64,000 bases of DNA, taken from Physcomitrium patens. Taxonomy: Eukaryota > Streptophyta > Bryopsida > Funariales > Funariaceae. Within the stretch, counting starts at the first letter, position 1; each line of letters opens with the position of its first letter. The notes under the pieces are model-generated. The model made no database searches. It was not told the DNA's origin and saw only the letters and a list, made by a program, of their open reading frames with translations. The stretch is taken from contig NC_037262.1 in assembly GCF_000002425.4 (NCBI RefSeq), positions 9,133,100 through 9,197,099 of the forward strand. The letters run 5' to 3'. Made by a program: the position numbers and the translations under genes. Shown here in pieces: positions 15,147 to 41,325 of the stretch.

Positions 15147-15551
15147 TATCATGGACATCCATATTTATATTAATAATTGTCTAAATAATATAAATAGGTA
15201 GAAGTGGATTAAAATAAGTAAATTTAATAATATCTTATAAAAAAACTTCATAGAAGCTTCATAAACATGGCTTTGACTTTATACATATTTGTAGTTGATT
15301 GATAGTTTAGAAACTTAACCAATAAGTTAGCAACATATTATACATGTTAGTAGCTTATGGTATAAGCTACTATGTGGTGCACATATAGAAAATTTGCCTT
15401 GCAAGTTGAGATATGTATCTTATAAGTTAGATACATGTTGAAGGTCCTATAGAACCTTGCTTTGTAATGCCTAGTTAGATAGTAAATATGGAGGCAAGAA
15501 TGAAGCCTTTTTCATTCTTATGAATGCCTTTCTATTCTTTAGACTTGTTTC

Positions 15552-15588
<37 letters not shown>

Positions 15589-15713
15589 CTTTTTGTCTTT
15601 ATTAATAGCTATTTTAAATTAATATTATATTATTTTAAAGTAATTTTTTAATCTTGTCAAATAACATAAGGCTGTATTGATCTTTTAGTCCTCTGAGATT
15701 TATATTCTTGATA
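15147..15713 (+). repeat. A1 5' LTR
   Basis: About 567 bp aligning end to end with the A3 LTRs, including the block around GAAGGTCCTATAGAAC and the promoter palindrome near 15490-15524. A long poly-T run near 15559-15584 is an expansion specific to this copy. The terminal TG...CA has decayed to TA...TA. Confidence 0.85.
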
Positions 15714-16287
15714 TTTTGATAAGAATACTAACTCATTGTTTTTGATTTGTTTTTATAAATGAGTGGATTACCTCACTTCTATTGTTTTATTTTGAAGATT
15801 GTAGATTATCTATCTTTAAACTAATATCTTAGTTTTTTAATACTATTTTTTTTTTTTTTTAAAGAGAGTGGACTATCTCTCTTTGTGGAAATTTTCTTTA
15901 GATATTAGAAGTTATAGATTATTCTCCTCTGATTTGACTTGTGAATTTATTTGAATTGCCTATAGAAAGAAAAATTATAGATGCTACTCTTATTAGAAGT
16001 AAGAATGGATTTGCAACTATTGCATATCTTTACAAATTTGTTAACATTCTTAGAGTCAAAATTTTACATATTTCTAATATAAACCATAGAATTATTATTT
16101 TTATGCCTATAGAGAAAGTCAATAATGATATTTAGATTCTATGCCAAAAAGTTATGCAATTAAGAATAGCGAGTATATCAAGTTTACAATTGAATGCAAA
16201 AAGTCTTGGTTCTACAATTATGAGGGATGTAAGATAAAGTATGTCAAAGAATTTTAATGGAATAAGATCAAAGTTTTAAGGATTTCT
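15714..16287 (+). pseudogene. A1 leader and start of gag (decayed)
   Basis: It aligns with the A3 region 32753-33230, including the AGTGGATTAC-type leader repeats and the gag motif read in A3 as DGTRSKFRGF. Many stops. The sequence stops at TTTCT (16283-16287), the target site of A2. Confidence 0.75.
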
Positions 16288-16818
16288 TATCAAAGATATT
16301 AATCTTGAAGAATTTATGATATAATATTAAATTAGAATGGCTAAACTTGAAGAATAAAGATGATATAATATTAAACTGAAATGGGTATTGCGAAAGACAA
16401 GAAGATTAGAAAGAATTAAAACAAGATTAAAGATTAAAAAGGTATTGACAAGAATGAAGAAGGCTTCATTCTTGCCTCCATATATATTCTTTAACTAAAA
16501 GCTACATAGTAATATTCTATAGGACCTCCAAGAAGTATCTCACTTATAGGATATATGATTTAACTTACAAGGTAAGTTATCTACATATGTGCGACATAGT
16601 TATCTTTTTCTACAAGCTTTTAATATGTATGCCATGTGATTAACTTGTTGACTAAGTTTCTAGCCTATTAATTAATTATAAATATATATAAAATCAAAGT
16701 AGTGCCTATGAAGCTTTTAAGAAGATTCTTTAAAAAATATTATAAAATAAATCTATTTTTATCTACTTCTATTTAATCATATAAATAATTATTAAAATAA
16801 ATATGTATGCCAGTGCCA
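16288..16818 (-). repeat. A2 3' LTR
   Basis: Reverse-complement match to the A3 LTR, about 531 bp. A roughly 42-bp tandem duplication lies near its left end. It is followed at higher coordinates by the decayed polypurine tract and the GGAACTCG-type block that precedes the A3 3' LTR. Confidence 0.85.
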
Positions 16819-25925: not shown

Positions 25926-27009
25926 GTTATGTATGTAGGTAGTAGACTTATTTTTCTATGTACATGAGAAATTTGAGACCAACTTAATAATACAAAGGAG
26001 AGATATTAGCACTAGAAGATCAACATTAAGGTTGGAAAAGGAAGCCAGCCAACATCGAAGCAGATTTTAGGATTTTTCTTTTATTTGGTAAATGAAATTG
26101 TTCTCAAATTTTTTGTATTTGTTTATTACTAAGAGATTGAGAGGTGTGTAAAATTTTAAATAAGATCAAAAGTTTAATCTAAAGATATTGAGGTTCTAAA
26201 CTACCTTAGGATTTGACTTAGGGTTTAGGATTTGGTTTATGATTTAGAATATTGATAAGATTTGTTTAGGATTTAGATTAAGATTTAAGATTTGATTAGG
26301 ATTTGATTTAGGATTTAGGATTTAGGATTCGATTAGAGTTTGATTTAGGATTTAGGATTTGGTTAGAATTTGGTTAGGATTTAATTTAGAATTTGGGATT
26401 TGGTTAGGGTTTGATTTAAGATTTAGGATTTAGTTAGGATTTGCTTTAGAATTCAGGGTTTGGTAAGGATTTGGTTTAGGATTTAAAATTTGGTTAAGAT
26501 TTGGTTAATATTTGATTTAGAATTTAAGATTTGACTAGGATTTGGTTTAGGATTTAAGATTTGGATAGGATTTGATTTAGGATTAAGAATTTAATTAAGG
26601 TTTGGTTCAAGGTTTAAGATTTGTCTAAGATTTTGTTTAGGGTTTAAAATTTTTTTAAGATTTGATTGAAGTCTATTAGGGTTTCAACTAAGATTAAATG
26701 AAAACTTGGTTGAAATTTATTTAAGATATATTATGATTATTTTAATATTTTTTTAAGACTTCTTAAGGATTCTTTTAAGTTTCATTGTAGATTATCTTTC
26801 AATTTCTTTAAGATTTCATATTGTTTCTTTTGTAATTTTTTTAAGATTACTTTTTGAATTTGATTAAAGCTTGTTTGGTAATGTTAAGATTTAATTAAAG
26901 TTTAATTAGTATTATATTAGAACTAAGATATTGTTATTGTAATTTCTATTCTACCTTCTACAGATAGGTGCTTGGTGCACTCTCAAGAAACACTTTATGT
27001 ATTATGACA
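25926..27009 (+). repeat. B 5' LTR
   Basis: About 1.08 kb. It starts at the block GTAGACTTATTTTTCT, includes GGAGAGATATTAGCA, a degenerate TTTAGGA array (about 26200-26680) and ends CTACCTTCTAC...ATTATGACA. It matches 39210-40251 throughout. Confidence 0.78.
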
Positions 27010-31995: not shown

Positions 31996-32190
31996 TGATG
32001 GTACAGAATTAGAGATATCTATAATAAGTAAATAAATCAGGATATTTAAACAAAGAGATGAAGATATTTGTTTTGATAAGAAATAAAATCCAATATAAGA
32101 TATTGTAATAGAAGTAGAAAAAAAATTAAAGATGAATAATTTGAACAAGATAAAGAGCATTCTACATCAACATATTGAAAAATCATAAGT

Positions 32191-32752
32191 TGTCACGGCC
32201 ATAATCATGTAAGCTAATAATTACATATAGAAATAGGTAGAAGTAAGTAAAAGTAGGTAAAAGTAAGTTAATTCTATAATATTTAATATGGAAGCTCTCT
32301 AGAAACTTCCTAGACACTGCTTTGACTTCATAGGTGTCTTTAATTGACTTTTTGGATTAGAAACGTGGTCAACAAGTTGGCCATGTGCCACACATGTTGT
32401 TAGTTTGCAGATCAAGCTAACTATGTGGCCCACACATAGAAAAACTTGCTTTGTAAGTCAAGGCATGTGCCCTACAAAGTCAACACATATTGAAGGTCCT
32501 ATAGAACATCGCCACATAGCTCCTAGTTAGAGAGTATATATAGAGACAAGAGTGAAGGCTTCTTCACTCTTGTCAACTCCTTTCTTGCTTCTAGTCTAGT
32601 TTCAAGGGTCTTTAGTTTTCTTGTCTTTTGGCAATAGCCATTCCAGTTTCTCTTTCAATATATATACTTGTTTATATATATTTTGTTACCTCTCTTTGAG
32701 TGAAGGCTCACTTGTCTGAATTATTTTTTTCATCGAGTTCTTGTGCTTGACA
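32191..32752 (+). repeat. A3 5' LTR
   Basis: 562 bp. The 5-bp ends TGTCA/TGACA are inverted. U3 is about 32191-32565 and R-U5 about 32566-32752 if transcription starts at the predicted site. Confidence 0.97.
32535..32576 (+). promoter_or_regulatory. A3 LTR core promoter and predicted transcript start
   Basis: A TATATATA box lies at 32535-32542. It is followed by a 13-bp palindrome, GACAAGAGTGAAG at 32545-32557 and its exact complement at 32562-32574, with a 4-base spacer. The right arm contains ACTCTTGTCAA (32566-32576), about 31 bp after the start of the TATA box and so at the expected transcript start. The palindrome is recognisable in the A1 and A2 LTRs. Confidence 0.7.
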
Positions 32753-32754
32753 GA

Positions 32755-32765
32755 TTGACAAGAGT
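32755..32765 (+). promoter_or_regulatory. Primer-binding site, self-primer type
   Basis: TTGACAAGAGT begins 2 bp after the 5' LTR and is the exact reverse complement of ACTCTTGTCAA at 32566-32576, the predicted 5' end of the RNA. It does not resemble a TGG-starting tRNA-primer site. Tf1/sushi elements use an 11-base self-match of this kind. Confidence 0.65.
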
Positions 32766-32964
32766 ACACCTACAATATCAGAGCTTTGTCTAATCTTGAT
32801 TAAGAGTGGATTACCCTTTTTTCTTGATAAGATCTAAGCGTATTAGAAGTTGCGGATTACCCTCTTCTAAACTGATATTGTCCTTAGTATTTTCTTTGTC
32901 CGTAAGTCCTCTCTTCTATTTGTCTTGAGCAATATTAGACATCTTCTCTCTTCTAAGTGTTATC

Positions 32965-33970
32965 ATGGCGGAACTTCTTGAAATGAAGAGTGCAATGGCA
33001 CAAATGTAAGAGCAATTGAGGGAGTTAATGCTTGCAATGCATCAACTCAATTTACCACCACAAGGAGCAATAAGATTGGCAAGAAGTGAAGATATAGAAA
33101 TGGTTGGAGCTGCTTCAACATCTGCATCAAATCATGTCCTTTCTCTTATGGTGGAACGGCCTTTTAAATGTTAGAGAACCAAGAATTACCCTATCCGAGA
33201 AGTTTGATGGCACAAGATCCAAGTTTCGAGGATTTATCAATCAAGTGCAACTTGTGATTGAACTTCAATCCCAAAGCTATCCAACTCCAGGATCACAAGT
33301 TAGATTCATTGGTGCGCTTCTTTCAAGTTCGGCACTATCATGGTTTTCATCTTTTCTTGAACAACGAGATCCAATATTGGATAATCTAGAGGCTTTTTTG
33401 GCGGAGTTTCGATCCATGTATGGAGAATATGATGCAATTCGTGTTGCAACCAATAAGATCCGTATTTTACGACAAGACAATCGATCAGTAACGTTATATG
33501 CTTCACAATTTTGACAACTTGCAACTGATACCAAGTGGGATGATGCTGCACTTATTAGCCAATTTTTCTACGGATTACAATATGAGGTAAAAAAATTAAT
33601 GCTCAACTTACCTGATCCTCAAAAATTAAGTCAAGCAATTGACTTTGCTGTGAAGTGCGACAATCGTCTTTTTGAATTTCGATCTGAGAACCATACAAGT
33701 GGACCTCAATGTTACTATAATTCAATGGCAACACCAACACCTCTTCAACACATACATTCGGAAGTAGAAGATATACAAATTGATGCAGTACGTTTCAAAC
33801 CTCTTACTGAGTAAGAAAAGACTCGTCGTTGTCAAGAAGGATTATGTTTATATTGTGGAGAACCAAAGCACACTGCTCAACATTGTCCAAAGAAACGACG
33901 CATTTACAAAATGAAGAGTATGGCTGTAAAAGAAGATAATATGTCACAAAATGAGTTTGTCTAGCTACAA
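32965..33970 (+). pseudogene. A3 gag (nucleocapsid zinc knuckle), broken
   Basis: It starts at ATG 32965 (MAELLEMKSAM). The long open part is 33104-33514, with the retrotransposon gag block (KFDGTRSKFRGFINQVQL, then RFIGALLSSSALSWFSSFL), and it continues 33599-33814. A CCHC knuckle CLYCGEPKHTAQHC (C-x2-C-x4-H-x4-C) follows near 33848-33890. Stops at about 33004, 33513, 33812, 33961 and 33970 are each one C-to-T change from CAA, CAG or CGA. An early frameshift lies before 33180. Role: particle protein that packages element RNA. Confidence 0.8.
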
Positions 33971-33978
33971 TAGGGATC

Positions 33979-36900
33979 GTGCGGCTGGAACCTTGCACAA
34001 CTTCTAGTATAGGTCCTATTCTCTCCTCAAAGCCCTCTCCTTGTTTTACATTAAATGCTATTTTAAGACCTAAACATTACAAAGTCTCTATCTTGTTAGA
34101 TTCAGGAGTCTCAGCGTATTTTTTACATGAAGAATTTACTAAAAGACATAGCATATCTTTAGTAAAGAAAACTAAACCTATTCATGTAGAAATCATAGAT
34201 GGTCGTCCATTGTCTTCTGGAGATATTACTCATGAAACCCTTCCTATAGAAGTAATAATCAATGGTCATAATAGTTTTGTAGTATTTAATATCATTAGAT
34301 CTCCCTCTAATCCAGTCATTTTAGGTTTATCGTGGTTAGAAAAATACAACCCTCAAATAGACTGGATTTCCTGAACTCTCACTTTCTCTAAAAGTATAAC
34401 TAACAATGTAGTTAAGCAAGTAGAGAGTCATAAGTCCAGTTCAATTAAACCCGTATTTATAGGTGCAAAAGCTTTCTTGCATGTTGCTATGAAAGAATCA
34501 CCATACATTATTTATGCTACACCCATTTTTACTGGTGAAAAGACTTCAAGTGGCATTTCAAGCCAATATCAAGAATTTCAAGATGTATTTGAAAAAAAAA
34601 ATGTGGATACACTCCCGGAATATCGTTCCTATGATTGCTCAATTGACCTTCAAGAAGGAACACCACCGCCATTTGGACCAATCTATAGTTTATCACAAAA
34701 TGAGTTGGCTGAACTGAAGGAGTATATTGAAAAAAATCTAGCCAAGAATTTCATACGCCATTCTAAATCTCCGACAGGAGCTCCAATTCTATTTGTGAAG
34801 AAAAAAAATGGATCATTGCGGATGTGTGTTGATTATCGAGGACTTAATAAGATTACCATCAAAAATAGGTATCCACTACCTTTAATATCCGGACTTCTTG
34901 ATCAGCTGAATCAAGCTAAGATCTATACAAAAATAGATCTTCGGGGAGCATACAATCTAGTACGCATCAAAAAAGGAGATGAATGGAAGACTACGTTTTG
35001 AACTAGGTATGGACATTTCGAATACAACGTCATGCCTTTTGGACTTACAAATGCACCAGCAGCTTTTCAACATCTAATGAATGATGTTTTCGAGAGTTTT
35101 TGGATGATTTTGTGGTATGTTATCTAGACAATATCTTGATCTATTCTAAGAATCCAAAAGAACATGAACTTCATATTCGTCGTGTGTTACAAAAATTAAG
35201 AGATGCAGGACTCTATGCCAAGATAGAAAAGTGTGTATTCCACACTACTCAAGTCGATTTCTTAGGTTACATCATTTCAAATGATGGACTTATGATGGAT
35301 CCTAAGAAAGTTCAAACTATTATAGACTGGAAGATCCCAAAAATGGTAAGAGATGTCTAATGTTTATTGGGATTTGCCAACTACTATCGGATCTTCATCA
35401 AAGACTTCTCTCGAGTTGCAGCTCCACTTACACGTTTGACTTATAAAGACAAATTCTAATGGAATCAAGAAGCGGAAGTTGCTTTTGAATCTTTGAAGAC
35501 ATCGTTTATTTTTGCACCAATCTTGTATCGTGTTGATTTTTCCAAAGCATTCTTTATGAAAACAGATGCATCGGACTTTGCTCAGGGTGCGATTTTATCA
35601 CAAGTGGGAACAGATGACAAACTTCATCCAATAGCCTTTCATTCGAGAAAATTCTGAGCAGCAGAAATCAATTATGAGATCCACGACAAAGAACTTCTTG
35701 CAATTGTGGATTCTTTTTAAGAATGGCATCATTATCTAGAAGGCGCTTCTAGTCTAGTCACCGTATATGTGGATCACAAGAACCTCAAATATTTTATGTC
35801 AACACGCGTATTAAATCGTCGCTAAGCTCGTTGGAGCATGTCTTTATCAAGATTCGAGTTCATCATCACTTATCGGCCAAGAAAACAATAAGGTTTATCT
35901 GATGCCTTGTCTAGAAATTCTTATCTTGTACCAAAAGAAGGAGATGTAGCTTTTGAGCAACAAAGAACGATTCTCTTGAAGCCGGAGCAATTTCATCTCC
36001 AAGCAATAAAATCAACATTGACTGTTGATTTAACTTTCCTTAAGCAAGTCCAGTTAAGTATGTCTTCAGACTCTCTTGTTCATGATATCAAGAATAATTC
36101 TTCTAAATCTCATGATCCATCTAAATTTGAATTCAAGAACAACCTACTCTATTTCGAAGGACGCCTATATGTTCCAGAAGGAGAAGCACGTTTACGTGTT
36201 CTTCAAGCTCGTCACGACTTCCCAGCAGCAAGACATTTCGGATATAATAAGACTTTGGAGCTGATATCTAGGGATTTTTGGTGGCCTCAAATGTGGAAGG
36301 TAGTTAAAGATTTTGTACAATCATGTGATGTTTGCTCAAGATCAAAAACTCCTCGTCATCGATCTTTTGGACTTCTTCAGCCATTATCCATTCCAAAACA
36401 ACCATGGTCTTCTGTTTCTATGGACTTCATCACGGATCTTCAAATCTCAAGTTCTTATGACTCTATATTCGTGATAGTAGATCGTTTTATCAAGATGGCA
36501 CATTTTGTACCATGTACAAAAACTATCATAGGTGAAGAAACAGCTAAGCTCTTTCTTGACAATAGCTATCGCTATCATGGATTACCCAAGGATATTATAT
36601 CAGATAGGAGAACTCAATTTGTATCAAGATTTTGGCGGACTCTTTTCAAGATTCTTAAAGTAGATATAAAACTATCTTTGACATTCCATCCTCAAATTGA
36701 TGGATAAACGGAGCATGTTAATCAAGTTTTGGAGCAATATTTAAGATGTACCATTAATTACCAACAAGATGATTGGACAACTCTTTTGCCATTGGCAGAG
36801 GTTGCTTACAATAACACGGTACACTATTCTACAAAATAAACACCTTTCTTTATTAATTATGGTTATCATCCACGACTTGATACTTTTGACTTTTCAAAAG

Positions 36901-37441
36901 TTCATAATCCTACTGCGAAAGATTTGACAATTCATTTATCAGAGCTACATGCAACGATGAAGGCGCAGTTAAAAGAGGCTCAAGAACAACAAAAGGCCAA
37001 TGCGGATGTCTATCGAAAGGAACAACCATCATTCGTCTTGGGTGATAAGGTATGGCTACTTCGTCACAATATCAAGACCACTCGTCCTTGTGACAAATTG
37101 GACTATCGAAGGCTCGGACCATTTTCTATTTCTGCACAAATCAATCCAGTTGCATATCGTTTATATCTACCAGAGTCAATGAAAATCCATCCAATATTCC
37201 ACATGTCTCTTCTTGAACCATACAAGACAGTGGACATACCAAGAAGACGACAAGCTCCACCTCCTTCTATAGAAGTGGACAATAATGAAGAGTTTGAAGT
37301 AGAAGAAGTCTTAGATTCAAGGCGACGCCAAAATAAATTAGAATATCTTGTCCATTGGTGCAGATATGATATTAGTGAACGCACATGGGAGCCAATAAAG
37401 AATCTTGCAAATGCAGCAAAGGCGGTGGAGGCTTTTCATTG
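33979..37441 (+). pseudogene. A3 pol: PR-RT-RNaseH-IN-chromodomain, broken
   Basis: Protease 33979-34374 (LLDSGVSAYF, later LGLSWLEKYNP). RT 34477-35360: [33 protein letters not shown], and YLDNILIYS, where the second catalytic Asp is Asn. RNase H about 35560-35900 (TDASDFAQGAI). Integrase 35907-36830: H-H-C-C finger (HFGYNKTLELI...CDVCSRSK), DDE core with MDFITDL, SDRRTQFVSRFW and TEHVNQ. Then a GPF block (LGPFSISAQINPVAYRL) and a C-terminal chromodomain at about 37270-37441 (EFEVEEVLDSRRRQNKLEYL, then RTWEPIKNL). Internal stops near 34372, 34999, 35358, 35457, 35656, 35718, 35822, 35889, 36704 and 36836 fit CAA or CGA changed by C to T. One base appears to be lost near 35095. Confidence 0.9.
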
Positions 37442-37560
37442 ACGATATCTATCAAAATTAAGATGAAAACCTTCTTTATAAAAGAAACAACATCTAGGCA
37501 AGATAACATTCTACTTTCAATTCTTCTTTGTAGTTTCATTGTAGTAGTGGCACTTAGGAG

Positions 37561-37917
37561 ATGGAGAACCAACAACCAGCGGATTCAACTCAAGAGCCTT
37601 CATTTGCTGACCTATCGGATGAGACATTACGATTGTCACAACCTTCAAGACGACACAATCGAGATGAAGATCTTCAAGAACAACATGTTCTTCCTCGAAT
37701 AGATGGTGAGATACAACGCGTTTGGTATCACGATTTGGGAAGGGACTCCCAATGTTTGGTGATTTTGCTAGAGGTAGGAACAACTCCTGATGGTGTTCCA
37801 AATATTCTATTCGAAGGAAGTTACGAAGGCCTCAACAATGATCAAATAACTGGGTGGTCTTCTCGCATTGGTATGGGACACTACCGATGGTTGAAAGGCC
37901 CTATCAATCATCTTTGA
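37561..37917 (+). CDS. A3 3' accessory ORF, function unknown
   Basis: Open frame of 118 codons lying 119 bp after the pol stop and before the polypurine tract. The N-terminal half is polar and low in complexity (ENQQPADSTQEPS, RRHNRDEDLQEQ). The C-terminal half looks like a compact domain (VWYHDLGRD, LVILLEVG, ILFEGSYEGLNNDQITGW, HYRWLKGPINHL). I recognise no family. Unlike gag and pol it has no stop despite about nine Gln codons. It is recognisable in A2 (16925-17290) and, truncated, in A1 (about 40385-40685), so it is not chance. The ATG at 37561 fits the A2 alignment. It may be expressed from a spliced or subgenomic RNA; no signal for that was identified. Confidence 0.6.
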   Translation: MENQQPADSTQEPSFADLSDETLRLSQPSRRHNRDEDLQEQHVLPRIDGEIQRVWYHDLGRDSQCLVILLEVGTTPDGVPNILFEGSYEGLNNDQITGWSSRIGMGHYRWLKGPINHL

Positions 37918-38010
37918 AGAGAACAAAGATCAGAGTATGTGGCGAATATAATTCATTGCATTATAGATTTTCTCAACATATGATGACCGCTCCTTGTGGA
38001 ACTCGTCCCT

Positions 38011-38024
38011 AGAAAGGGGGGTAA
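38011..38024 (+). other. A3 polypurine tract
   Basis: AGAAAGGGGGG immediately precedes TAA and the 3' LTR. The same tract, AGAAAGGAGG, precedes the A1 3' LTR at 40774-40783. Confidence 0.85.
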
Positions 38025-38586
38025 TGTCACGGCCATAATCATGTAAGCTAATAATTACATATAGAAATAGGTAGAAGTAAGTAAAAATAGGTAAAAGTAA
38101 GTTAATTGTATAATATTTAATATAGAAGCTCCCTAGAAACTTCCTAGACACTGCTTTGACTTCATAGGTGTCTTTAATTGATTTTTTGGATTAGAAACGT
38201 GGTCAACAAGTTGGCCATGTGCCACACATGTTGTTAGCTTGAAGATCAAGCTAACTATGTGGCCCACACATAGAAAAACTTGCTTTGTAAGTCAAGGCAT
38301 GTGCCCTACTAAGTCAACACATATTGAAGGTCCTATAGAACATCGCCACATAGCTCCTAGTTAGAGAGTATATATAGAGACAAGAGTGAAGGCTTCTTCA
38401 CTCTTGTCAACTCCTTTCTTGCTTCTAGTCTAGTTTCAAGGGTCTTTAGTTTTCTTGTCTTTTGGCAATAGCCATTCCAGTTTCTCTTTCAATATATATA
38501 CTTGTTTATATATATTTTGTTACCTCTCTTTGAGTGAAGGCTCACTTGTCTGAATTGTTTTTTTCATCGAGTTCTTGTCCTTGACA
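38025..38586 (+). repeat. A3 3' LTR
   Basis: 562 bp, same length as the 5' LTR, ends TGTCAC...TTGACA, followed by TAAGT. Confidence 0.97.
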
Positions 38587-39209
38587 TAAGTGCATGCCGA
38601 AGGATGCATAGATTTAATGGAGGTAGATGTCATGATCTAACATGGCTAATATGTGAAAGAGTGAAGAAATTATTATATTATAAAAGATCTTAGTTAAAAA
38701 CATAATGGCAAATTATATTACAAATATAGATAATAGTCAAAGGGGTAGTAAAACTAAAATATATCAATATTACCTTTTACAAAATGAACTACTATTCACT
38801 TTTATAGGACCATAAAGAAAGAAAAATAAATTAAATTAGAAAATTAAATGATGTAGACATGTGTAGGAGAGAGTTAAAAGTAGATTTTAGCAAAATTTAC
38901 CTCAAAAAGCCAAGAATTGATACCTAAAGAAGATCGGTTGTCAACTTGGGTCGAAATCAGACCTTGAAGCACAAAATTAGACACCTACGGCAACTTCAGG
39001 GTTCTTTTGGAGATCAAAGAGTGGAATATGATAGTAAACTTGATAAGGTTTCTATGAGCATTGGTTTTGTGTGATTTCAGTTTTTAATGACTTTATAAGA
39101 TCCTTACAAAGTTAAGATTGTTTCAAATGATTCAAAGTTTTGTGAAATAAAAGAGGGTTGATATTTTAGGCAGTTTCAAGTATTTTGTAGCAGATCTATA
39201 AGTGAAATT
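38587..39209 (+). other. B interior, 3' end
   Basis: B sequence resuming after A3. It is non-coding as far as seen. 38850-39060 is shared with 19200-19420, supporting a family-specific 3' interior next to the LTR. Confidence 0.55.
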
Positions 39210-40251
39210 TGTCATATATGTGTGTGGATAGTAGACTTTTTTTTCTACATATATGAGAAATTTGAGACCAACTTAATAGTACAAAGGAGAGATATTAGCA
39301 TTGAAAGATCAGTATCAAGGTTGGAGAAAGAGACCAATCAACATCTAAGCAGATTTTAGGATTTTTCTTCTATTTGGTGAGTGTAATCATCTTCAAATTT
39401 ATTGTACTTGTTTTTTTATTCAAAGATTGAGAGGTGTATAAAATTTTAAATAAGATCAATAATTTGATCTAAAGATATTGAGGTTCTAAACTACCTTAAG
39501 ATTTAGTTTAGGATTTAGGATTTGTTTAGGATTTGGTTTACGATTAAAGGTTTGATTAGGATTCGATTTAGGATTTAAGATTTGATTAAAGGTTTGATTA
39601 GGATTCGATTTAGGATTTAAGATTTGATTAAGATTTTATTTAGGATTTAAGATTTGATTAGGATTTGATTTAGGATTTAGGATTTGGTTAGGATTTGATT
39701 AGGATTTGATTTAAGATTTAAGATTTGATTAGGATTTAATATTTGATTAAGATTTGATTTAAGATTTAAGATTTGCTTAGGATTTGATTTAAGATTTGTT
39801 TAAGGTCTGATTTAGGATTTAGGATTTGGTTGAAATTTGATTTAAAGTTTAAGGTTTAAGATTTGGTTAGGATTTGGTTTAGGATTTAAAATTTTATTAG
39901 CATTTGATTGAATTCTATTAGGATTTAAATTAGGATTAAATTAGAACTTAATTGAAATTTATTTAAGATATATTGTGCTCATTTTAATATTTTTTTAGAA
40001 CTTCTTAAGGATTCTTTTAAGGTTTATTGTAGATTATCTTTCAACTCTTTTAAGATTTCTTATTGTTTCTTTTGTAATTTTTTTAAGATTTCTTTTTAAA
40101 TTTGATTAAAACTTGTTTAATATAATTAAGATTTAATTAGATTTTAATTAATATTCTATTAGAATTAAGATATTATTATTGTAATTTCCATTCTACCTTC
40201 TACAATCAAGTGCTCAGTACACTCTCAAGTAACATTTCATGTATTACGACA
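39210..40251 (+). repeat. B 3' LTR
   Basis: About 1.04 kb. It begins TGTCATATATG and ends ATTACGACA, with the TTTAGGA array at about 39490-39920. Confidence 0.8.
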
Positions 40252-40786
40252 CCAAGGTCTATGAAGATTGATCAAGTATTCTACGTGTCTCTTTTTGAAC
40301 CATATAAAATAGTGAATATTTCAAGAAGAAGACAAATGCCACCTCTTCTTATTAAAGTGGATAATTCAACAAGCTGCAGTTTGAACAAGACATTGCAATT
40401 ATCACAACCTTCAAGTTGACTTAATAGAAATGAAGATATTCAAGAATGACATATTCTTCATCAAATAGATGGTGAGATATAATGCATTTGATATCAAGGC
40501 CTTAGAGACTTTCAATGTTTGGTGATTTTACTATAGGTAAAAACAACTTTTCATGATATTATAAATATTTTATTTAAAAGAAGTTACAAAGGCATAAAAA
40601 ATAATCAAATAACAAGGTGGTTTTCTTGCCTTGAAATAAGAAATTATCAATGGTTAAGAGGACCTATCAACTACCTTCAAAAGAAACAAAGATTAAAGTA
40701 TGTAAAAAATTTAAATTATTACATCTTGGACTTTATCAACATGTAATCATTGCTCTTTATGGAACTCGTTCTTAGAAAGGAGGTAA
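40252..40786 (+). pseudogene. A1 pol tail and truncated 3' accessory ORF
   Basis: It resumes A1 pol in the GPF region (S-M-K-I-D, then EPYKIVNISRRRQMPP). It then jumps by deletion from the start of the chromodomain into the 3' ORF (LQLSQPSS-like block near 40400). The rest of that ORF aligns with A3 to about 40685. It ends with the polypurine tract. Confidence 0.75.
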
Positions 40787-41325
40787 TGTCAAAAATATAA
40801 ATAATTATTCCGATAATTATTAATATGATTAAATAGAAGTAAATAAAATTAAATTAATTAAATAATATTTTATAAAAAAACTTTCTAGAAGTTTCATAGA
40901 TGTGACTTTGACTTTATACATGTTTGTAGTTGATTGATAGATTAGAAACTTAGCTAATTAGTTAGCAATGTGTAACATGTATTGATAGCTTATGGTACAA
41001 ACTTACAATATGGCGCACATATAAAAAACTTGCTTTGCAAATTAAGCCATGTGTCTTACAAGTTAGATATGTATTGGAGGTCCTATAGAACATCACTACA
41101 TAGCTCCTAGTTAGATAGTATATATGGAGGCAAGAGTGAAGCCTTCTTCACTCTTTTCAATGCCTTTTTAGTCTTTAGTCTTGTTTAAAGACTTTCTGGT
41201 CTTCTTGTCTTTAGTAATAGTTATTTTAATTTAATATTATACCATCTTTGAGTGATTTTTTAATCTTTTTGAATGACACAAGAGTATATTGATCTTTTGG
41301 TCATTTGAGATTTATGTCCTTGACA
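40787..41325 (+). repeat. A1 3' LTR
   Basis: 539 bp, TGTCAA...TTGACA, aligning end to end with the A3 LTR. Confidence 0.9.

Follow-up and report, generated by a model that had tools for sequence, protein, structure and literature searches.

The retrotransposon Tf1 of S. pombe uses the 11-base 5' end of its own RNA as the primer of reverse transcription, and for Tcn1 of Cryptococcus neoformans self-priming as in Tf1/sushi elements has been proposed (PMC7175516); the structure of the Tf1 leader has likewise been described (PMC10085805). Tcn1-type elements have been reported from Physcomitrium patens (PMC3350952, PMC3729371), in which RLG1, a gypsy family with a chromodomain, is described as very abundant (PMC7466625). 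According to Neumann et al. (2019), chromoviruses of the plant Tcn1 clade from moss and club-moss mostly lack a tRNA PBS and are predicted to be self-primed (PMC6317226), while the description of SM-Tcn1 from Selaginella moellendorffii reports a chromodomain and neither a tRNA PBS nor a self-priming match (PMC2864245). Self-priming in plants is therefore not news, as it was predicted before for the plant Tcn1 clade. What is added here, on the basis of sequence comparison, are matched changes between two lineages and a U3/R hairpin whose 3' arm is formed by the putative primer.

The element under study, element B, occupies positions 32191-38586 on the forward strand of the window, i.e. of the whole 64,000-nucleotide stretch of moss DNA that was analysed. 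It is flanked by the target-site duplication TAAGT, read at both element ends (32186-32190 and 38587-38591), and is bounded by 562-bp LTRs (32191-32752 and 38025-38586) of 98.2% identity, the 5' LTR terminating in TTGACA at 32752. The coding order is gag, protease, reverse transcriptase, integrase, SH3_Tf2-1 and chromodomain, disrupted by stops and frame changes: stop-interrupted gag pieces lie at 33098-33811 (Pfam DUF4939 and Retrotrans_gag on 33104-33511), a protease piece at 33955-34371 (RVP_2 on 33979-34371), reverse transcriptase pieces in differing frames at 34375-34998 and 35085-35357 (RVT_1 on 34477-34998) and an integrase piece at 35892-36704 (Integrase_H2C2, with rve under its cut-off, and homologues). 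The integrase C-terminal piece at 36840-37439 carries SH3_Tf2-1 and Chromo (36924-37439) and thus provides the arrangement typical of chromoviruses, integrase followed by a chromodomain. Of the aromatic cage of group I chromodomains (Y24, W45, Y48), B has the W and the second Y, with F at the first place, as visual inspection of alignments with solved chromodomains suggests. A polypurine tract (38011-38021) ends 3 nt upstream of the 3' LTR. Among the integrase homologues listed (120 of 648) a chytrid and a frog are named as organisms, and in a second homologue list (120 of 7722) a fern; in a scan of viral contigs four stretches matched the pattern and no relative was found. We take B for a recent copy, since interrupted, of a Ty3/gypsy retrotransposon with a chromodomain that is abundant in the moss. 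Abundance, chromodomain and moss host suggest that the family may be RLG1 of Physcomitrium patens; among 21 relatives of a host protein, the single one with a named organism belongs to the moss Ceratodon. An ORF of 118 amino acids between chromodomain and polypurine tract (37561-37917) has no Pfam match, and the family-A copy adjoining copy C (see below) contains a match to its DNA. Elsewhere in the window, degenerate tandem arrays of TTTAGGATTTG-like units at 26206-26667 and 39496-39969 lie within longer related segments (25928-27009 and 39217-40251) that are 81% identical.

A putative TATA box, TATATATA, is read at 32535-32542 of the 5' LTR. The 11-mer ACTCTTGTCAA (32566-32576), which would form nucleotides 1-11 of the RNA if transcription starts where predicted, begins at TATA+31, at the A of a CA. 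Its exact complement, TTGACAAGAGT at 32755-32765, is separated from the LTR by the 2-nt spacer GA (32753-32754) and is, in the light of the family comparisons, the predicted PBS for a self-primer. Both the positions of the two 11-mers and the spacing of about 31 bp from the TATA box agree with those given in an earlier sequence-only reading of this DNA, which had proposed Tf1-like self-priming. The match is exactly 11 nt long: R base 12 finds no partner in the spacer, nor does the base preceding 32566 pair with the one following the PBS. Dinucleotide shuffling of the LTR produced a complement of at least 11 nt to a stretch starting no more than 6 bases past the LTR in 49 of 20,000 cases and such a complement within an 85-nt stretch in 11 of 20,000, and of about 5,240 mock PBSs placed at internal positions two had a complement of at least 11 nt. 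The single match in B is unlikely but not overwhelming, and the case therefore rests on the family data.

The 11-mer takes part in a second pairing, which the sequence-only reading had missed. It belongs to the 3' arm of a hairpin of 12-13 bp, in which a U3 arm (32545-32557) faces an R-side arm (32562-32574) that overlaps the first 9 nt of the putative primer; PBS and U3 arm have 9 bases in common. The copy of the primer sequence in the 3' LTR (38400-38410) lies inside the same hairpin. The outermost pair fails in 23 of 49 distinct rows of the alignment of family copies described below.

Copies were sought in a genome of 470 Mb in 101 contigs. For family B, 42 matches to B were listed, 40 of 8562 candidates were scored and 26 were compared as sibling copies; the R 11-mer was changed in three of these and the PBS in one. 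When B itself and two copies from one blind stretch are included, R and PBS pair without mismatch in 25 of 29 copies and with one mismatch in the other four. A pattern with fixed flanks and a free PBS matched 621 sites, versus none in the reversed control, and 62 of the 100 of these sites that were listed had the exact PBS (counted by eye). Matched substitutions among family copies, proposed earlier as a check, did not appear within this young family: 20 copies were picked for a PBS changed to TTGACAAGAAT (14) or TTGATAAGAGT (6), and 18 of them had no matching change in R, against two that did. The expectation was borne out at a deeper level, between B and A on the one side and lineage D on the other.

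Family A was queried with the LTR of copy C (40786-41325, forward strand). Of 13839 candidates 40 were scored and 43 matches were listed; when C itself is set aside, 42 places remain, of which 40 were retrieved. Fifteen of these 40 were chosen by eye for an internal leader past the LTR, a choice biased toward readable PBSs; the remainder resemble 3' or solo LTRs, L088 being unclear. Together with the window copies A1 and A2 (n=17), 0, 1, 2, 3 and 4 R:PBS mismatches occur in 2, 7, 2, 4 and 2 rows, respectively. Identity between B and A is 0.869 for the R 11-mer and 0.866 for the PBS, as it is within A (0.872 and 0.866), versus 0.235 in the spacer, 0.287 in the 10 nt past the PBS and 0.518 in the 15 nt past the R 11-mer; conservation falls off at the PBS-side limits of the 11-mer and beyond R+11. 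Because the two 11-mers are as similar between the families as they are within A, with a drop at their limits, B and A have one common R/PBS pair, which has decayed in the A copies. The pairs pointed out earlier in A1 (15514-15524 with 15716-15726, forward strand, 10 of 11 paired) and A2 (23144-23134 with 22966-22956, reverse strand, 9 of 11) are found at these positions. Their use as independent support had to be rejected, since they are decayed forms of B's own pair, differ from it mostly by C>T and G>A and add no covariation. Family-A LTRs also occur in inverted pairs, for example 15152-15714 with 16355-16812 in the window, and contig C15 has two such places (1186303-1187366 and 1194234-1195297), separated by 8 kb, where the LTRs are arranged tail to tail with about 27 bp between them.

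Lineage D was found in blind 10-kb stretches by a fuzzy search for the hairpin of B that allowed 8 substitutions, a limit at which the stretch L039 matched. L039 was also recovered by scans asking just for TATA box, start and downstream complement, or for those plus the hairpin. Its PBS was located through its similarity to that of B (3 mismatches) and complements the R of L039 exactly. Compared with the 11-mer pair of B, 3 of 11 positions differ, and all three are compensated in the PBS. A genome search for D listed 40 matches, scored 40 of 4009 candidates and led to 20 retrieved copies, in which R:PBS pairing is perfect (14/20) or has a single mismatch (6/20); the copies of B and D were drawn from the best matches to queries containing the PBS. 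B and D align over the core (73.5%) and over the LTR end and leader (68.8%), the rest of the LTR giving short weak matches only, and a short stretch at the start of their gag proteins has 11 of 22 residues in common.

Pairs were counted on 50 rows: B plus 19 of the 26 sibling copies, 10 of the 17 rows of family A, and L039 plus 19 of the 20 D copies (L115 was omitted for its resemblance to L112). R and PBS are paired in 97.6% of cells versus 33-43% when slid against each other, and U3 arm and R in 93.9% versus 40-52%. Lineage D differs in three pairs of either helix, each with both partners changed, and the R positions involved, +2, +6 and +8, are identical in the two helices. Double-change cells and covariation score exceed all 500 shuffles; the counts of changed pairs (4 pairs, 241/500; 5 pairs, 246/500) and of pair types (245/500 and 389/500) do not lie above shuffles. 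All of the covariation goes back to a single split between lineages that involves three sites, and does not reflect a series of events. A crude model that assumes 31% divergence gives values of about 6e-5 (PBS) and 6e-6 (U3 arm). A scan of the window and 20 blind stretches for the structure with zero mismatches returned six rows, all of B type or D, and one low-complexity row in the reversed control; with up to 2 mismatches the same scan was uninformative (37 rows versus 44 in the control). What the compared sequences show directly is the complementarity, with its sharp limits, and, from one lineage to the other, a compensated change of both PBS and hairpin.

Start site and folds are predictions. 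In the leader folded from 32566 the 11-mer is predicted to pair with the PBS in both MFE and centroid structures (-48.1 kcal/mol, z -2.1, 6/200 shuffles as low), with pair probabilities of 0.83-1.0 in B and 0.51-0.86 in D. In RNAs starting at 32548 or earlier the 11-mer is predicted to be buried in the hairpin, with a mean primer:PBS probability of at most 0.002, and in those starting from 32551 onward it is freed and pairs with a probability of at least 0.80; the dependence on the start is similar in D. Four local folds of the 3' LTR predict that nucleotides 1-8 of its primer copy are unpaired with a probability of at most 0.01 and that the last two are open, the latter a point against the scheme proposed below. 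The hairpins (-21.3 kcal/mol in B; -19.4) are predicted to be more stable than the primer:PBS duplexes (-14.4 and -16.2). In the literature searched, which comprised papers and text outside subscription papers and supplements, a U3/R hairpin containing the primer was not found described. A leader motif like GTGGATTACCC is repeated and followed by CTAAACTGATA in both B (32796-32890) and D (L039, 8570-8790).

We consider it highly probable that element B primes itself, the first 11 nt of its own RNA, and not a tRNA, starting reverse transcription. To this extent the sequence-only reading is well supported by the sharp 11-nt block, the predicted fold and the compensation between lineages. The RNA would begin at or beside 32566, at R and so within the hairpin; its 5' 11-mer, free of the U3 arm, would pair with the PBS 2 nt past the LTR, be cut off and then prime minus-strand DNA, as in Tf1. 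The hairpin would hide the primer sequence in the 3' LTR or in RNA started upstream, so that just the true 5' end could pair with the PBS. Cleavage, priming and masking are the inferred parts of this scheme. As a tentative extension, which we put somewhat below an even chance, the primer may double as hairpin arm in order to check the 5' end: the 3'-LTR copy and upstream-started RNAs would stay folded and unable to prime, and R, PBS and U3 arm would evolve as a three-stranded set.

The match between R and PBS might also result from rewriting alone, if the copying of a retained self-primer renewed the PBS from R in each round and pairing were not selected. We regard this as a serious possibility, approaching an even one. 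The primer of Tf1 is reportedly not removed (Atwood-Moore 2006), which fits such rewriting. The explanation presupposes self-priming, however, and is a refinement of it more than an opponent. Moreover, while rewriting alone could keep R and PBS matched, it cannot account for the matched change in the U3 arm, and selection on the hairpin is therefore likely.

Whether it is an RNA hairpin that was selected is a separate question, since the inverted repeat of U3 and R could act in DNA, as a palindromic promoter site around the transcription start, and not as an RNA structure masking the primer. It sits between TATA box and start, conservation between families B and A extends over the whole core (TATA to R+11), and a DNA palindrome would covary too; this reading is doubtful but deserves real weight. 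A DNA palindrome, however, gains nothing from G-U pairs, and the hairpin retains them at two of its pairs, at the one in 19 rows of the D type, out of 49 distinct rows, and at the other in 9 of the A type, which favours RNA. The stability of the RNA hairpins, unequalled in 500 mononucleotide shuffles (0/500 as low), likewise speaks against a site in DNA.

Priming of B by a tRNA is very unlikely. It would require ATATCAGAGCT (32775-32785), about 22 nt past the LTR in B, to serve as an initiator-tRNA PBS in displaced or degenerate form, with the 11-mer match being secondary. The motif, which resembles an initiator-tRNA PBS without its TGG, stands at a similar place in B and D, and of the 12 bases of the usual plant initiator-tRNA PBS 9 are those of TATCAGAGC. 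Yet TGG, with which the CCA end of the tRNA would pair, is missing, the rows of family A lack the motif, and priming at this site would add more than 20 extra nt beyond the LTR end. Its conservation downstream of the self-priming PBS in the leaders of B and D (L109-L128) may mark a relic of tRNA priming or a part of the leader structure. TGG is absent from the 40 nt past the LTR in B and likewise in D, in keeping with the earlier statement that no TGG-starting tRNA site adjoins the LTR; the contrast drawn there with tRNA-primed plant elements overlooked the self-priming published as a prediction for the plant Tcn1 clade (PMC6317226). That the 11-base match arose by chance, as in the few shuffled LTRs equalling it, or as an inverted-repeat by-product of the bases common to PBS and U3 arm, is exceedingly improbable in view of the sharply limited conservation in B and A and the compensated re-creation in D.

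Self-priming in a land-plant element thereby moves from PBS-based prediction to support by compensated change between two abundant moss lineages, in a host, apparently a model species, in which RNA ends are readily mappable. The hairpin raises a question that concerns any self-primed element: why does the second primer copy, which the RNA carries at its 3' end, not compete for the PBS?

Among the described systems, Tf1 resembles B in that the first 11 RNA bases (with the start predicted in B) complement a PBS next to the 5' LTR and in that both have a chromodomain. The central duplex of a Tf1-type three-duplex leader is predicted in B and D. A difference from Tf1 lies in its two side duplexes, which are no better than shuffles in B (83/500 each in one run, 192 and 101/500 in another), whereas in D one beats shuffles (2/500) and the other does not (476/500). 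Like the plant Tcn1-clade elements, B is a chromodomain gypsy element of a non-seed plant with predicted self-priming; no difference from them is established, and the family of B may already be in the element list of Neumann et al. Tcn1 of Cryptococcus neoformans resembles B in that Tf1/sushi-like self-priming is proposed for it. SM-Tcn1 is likewise a plant chromodomain element without a tRNA PBS and differs in having no self-priming match, where B has one. The fungal GalEa Copia elements with their Conserved Hairpin Site share with B the lack of a classical PBS and a conserved hairpin near the priming region. The GalEa hairpin, however, lies past the 5' LTR, and no complement to the RNA start was found in these elements, whereas the hairpin of B spans U3 and R and contains the putative primer itself.
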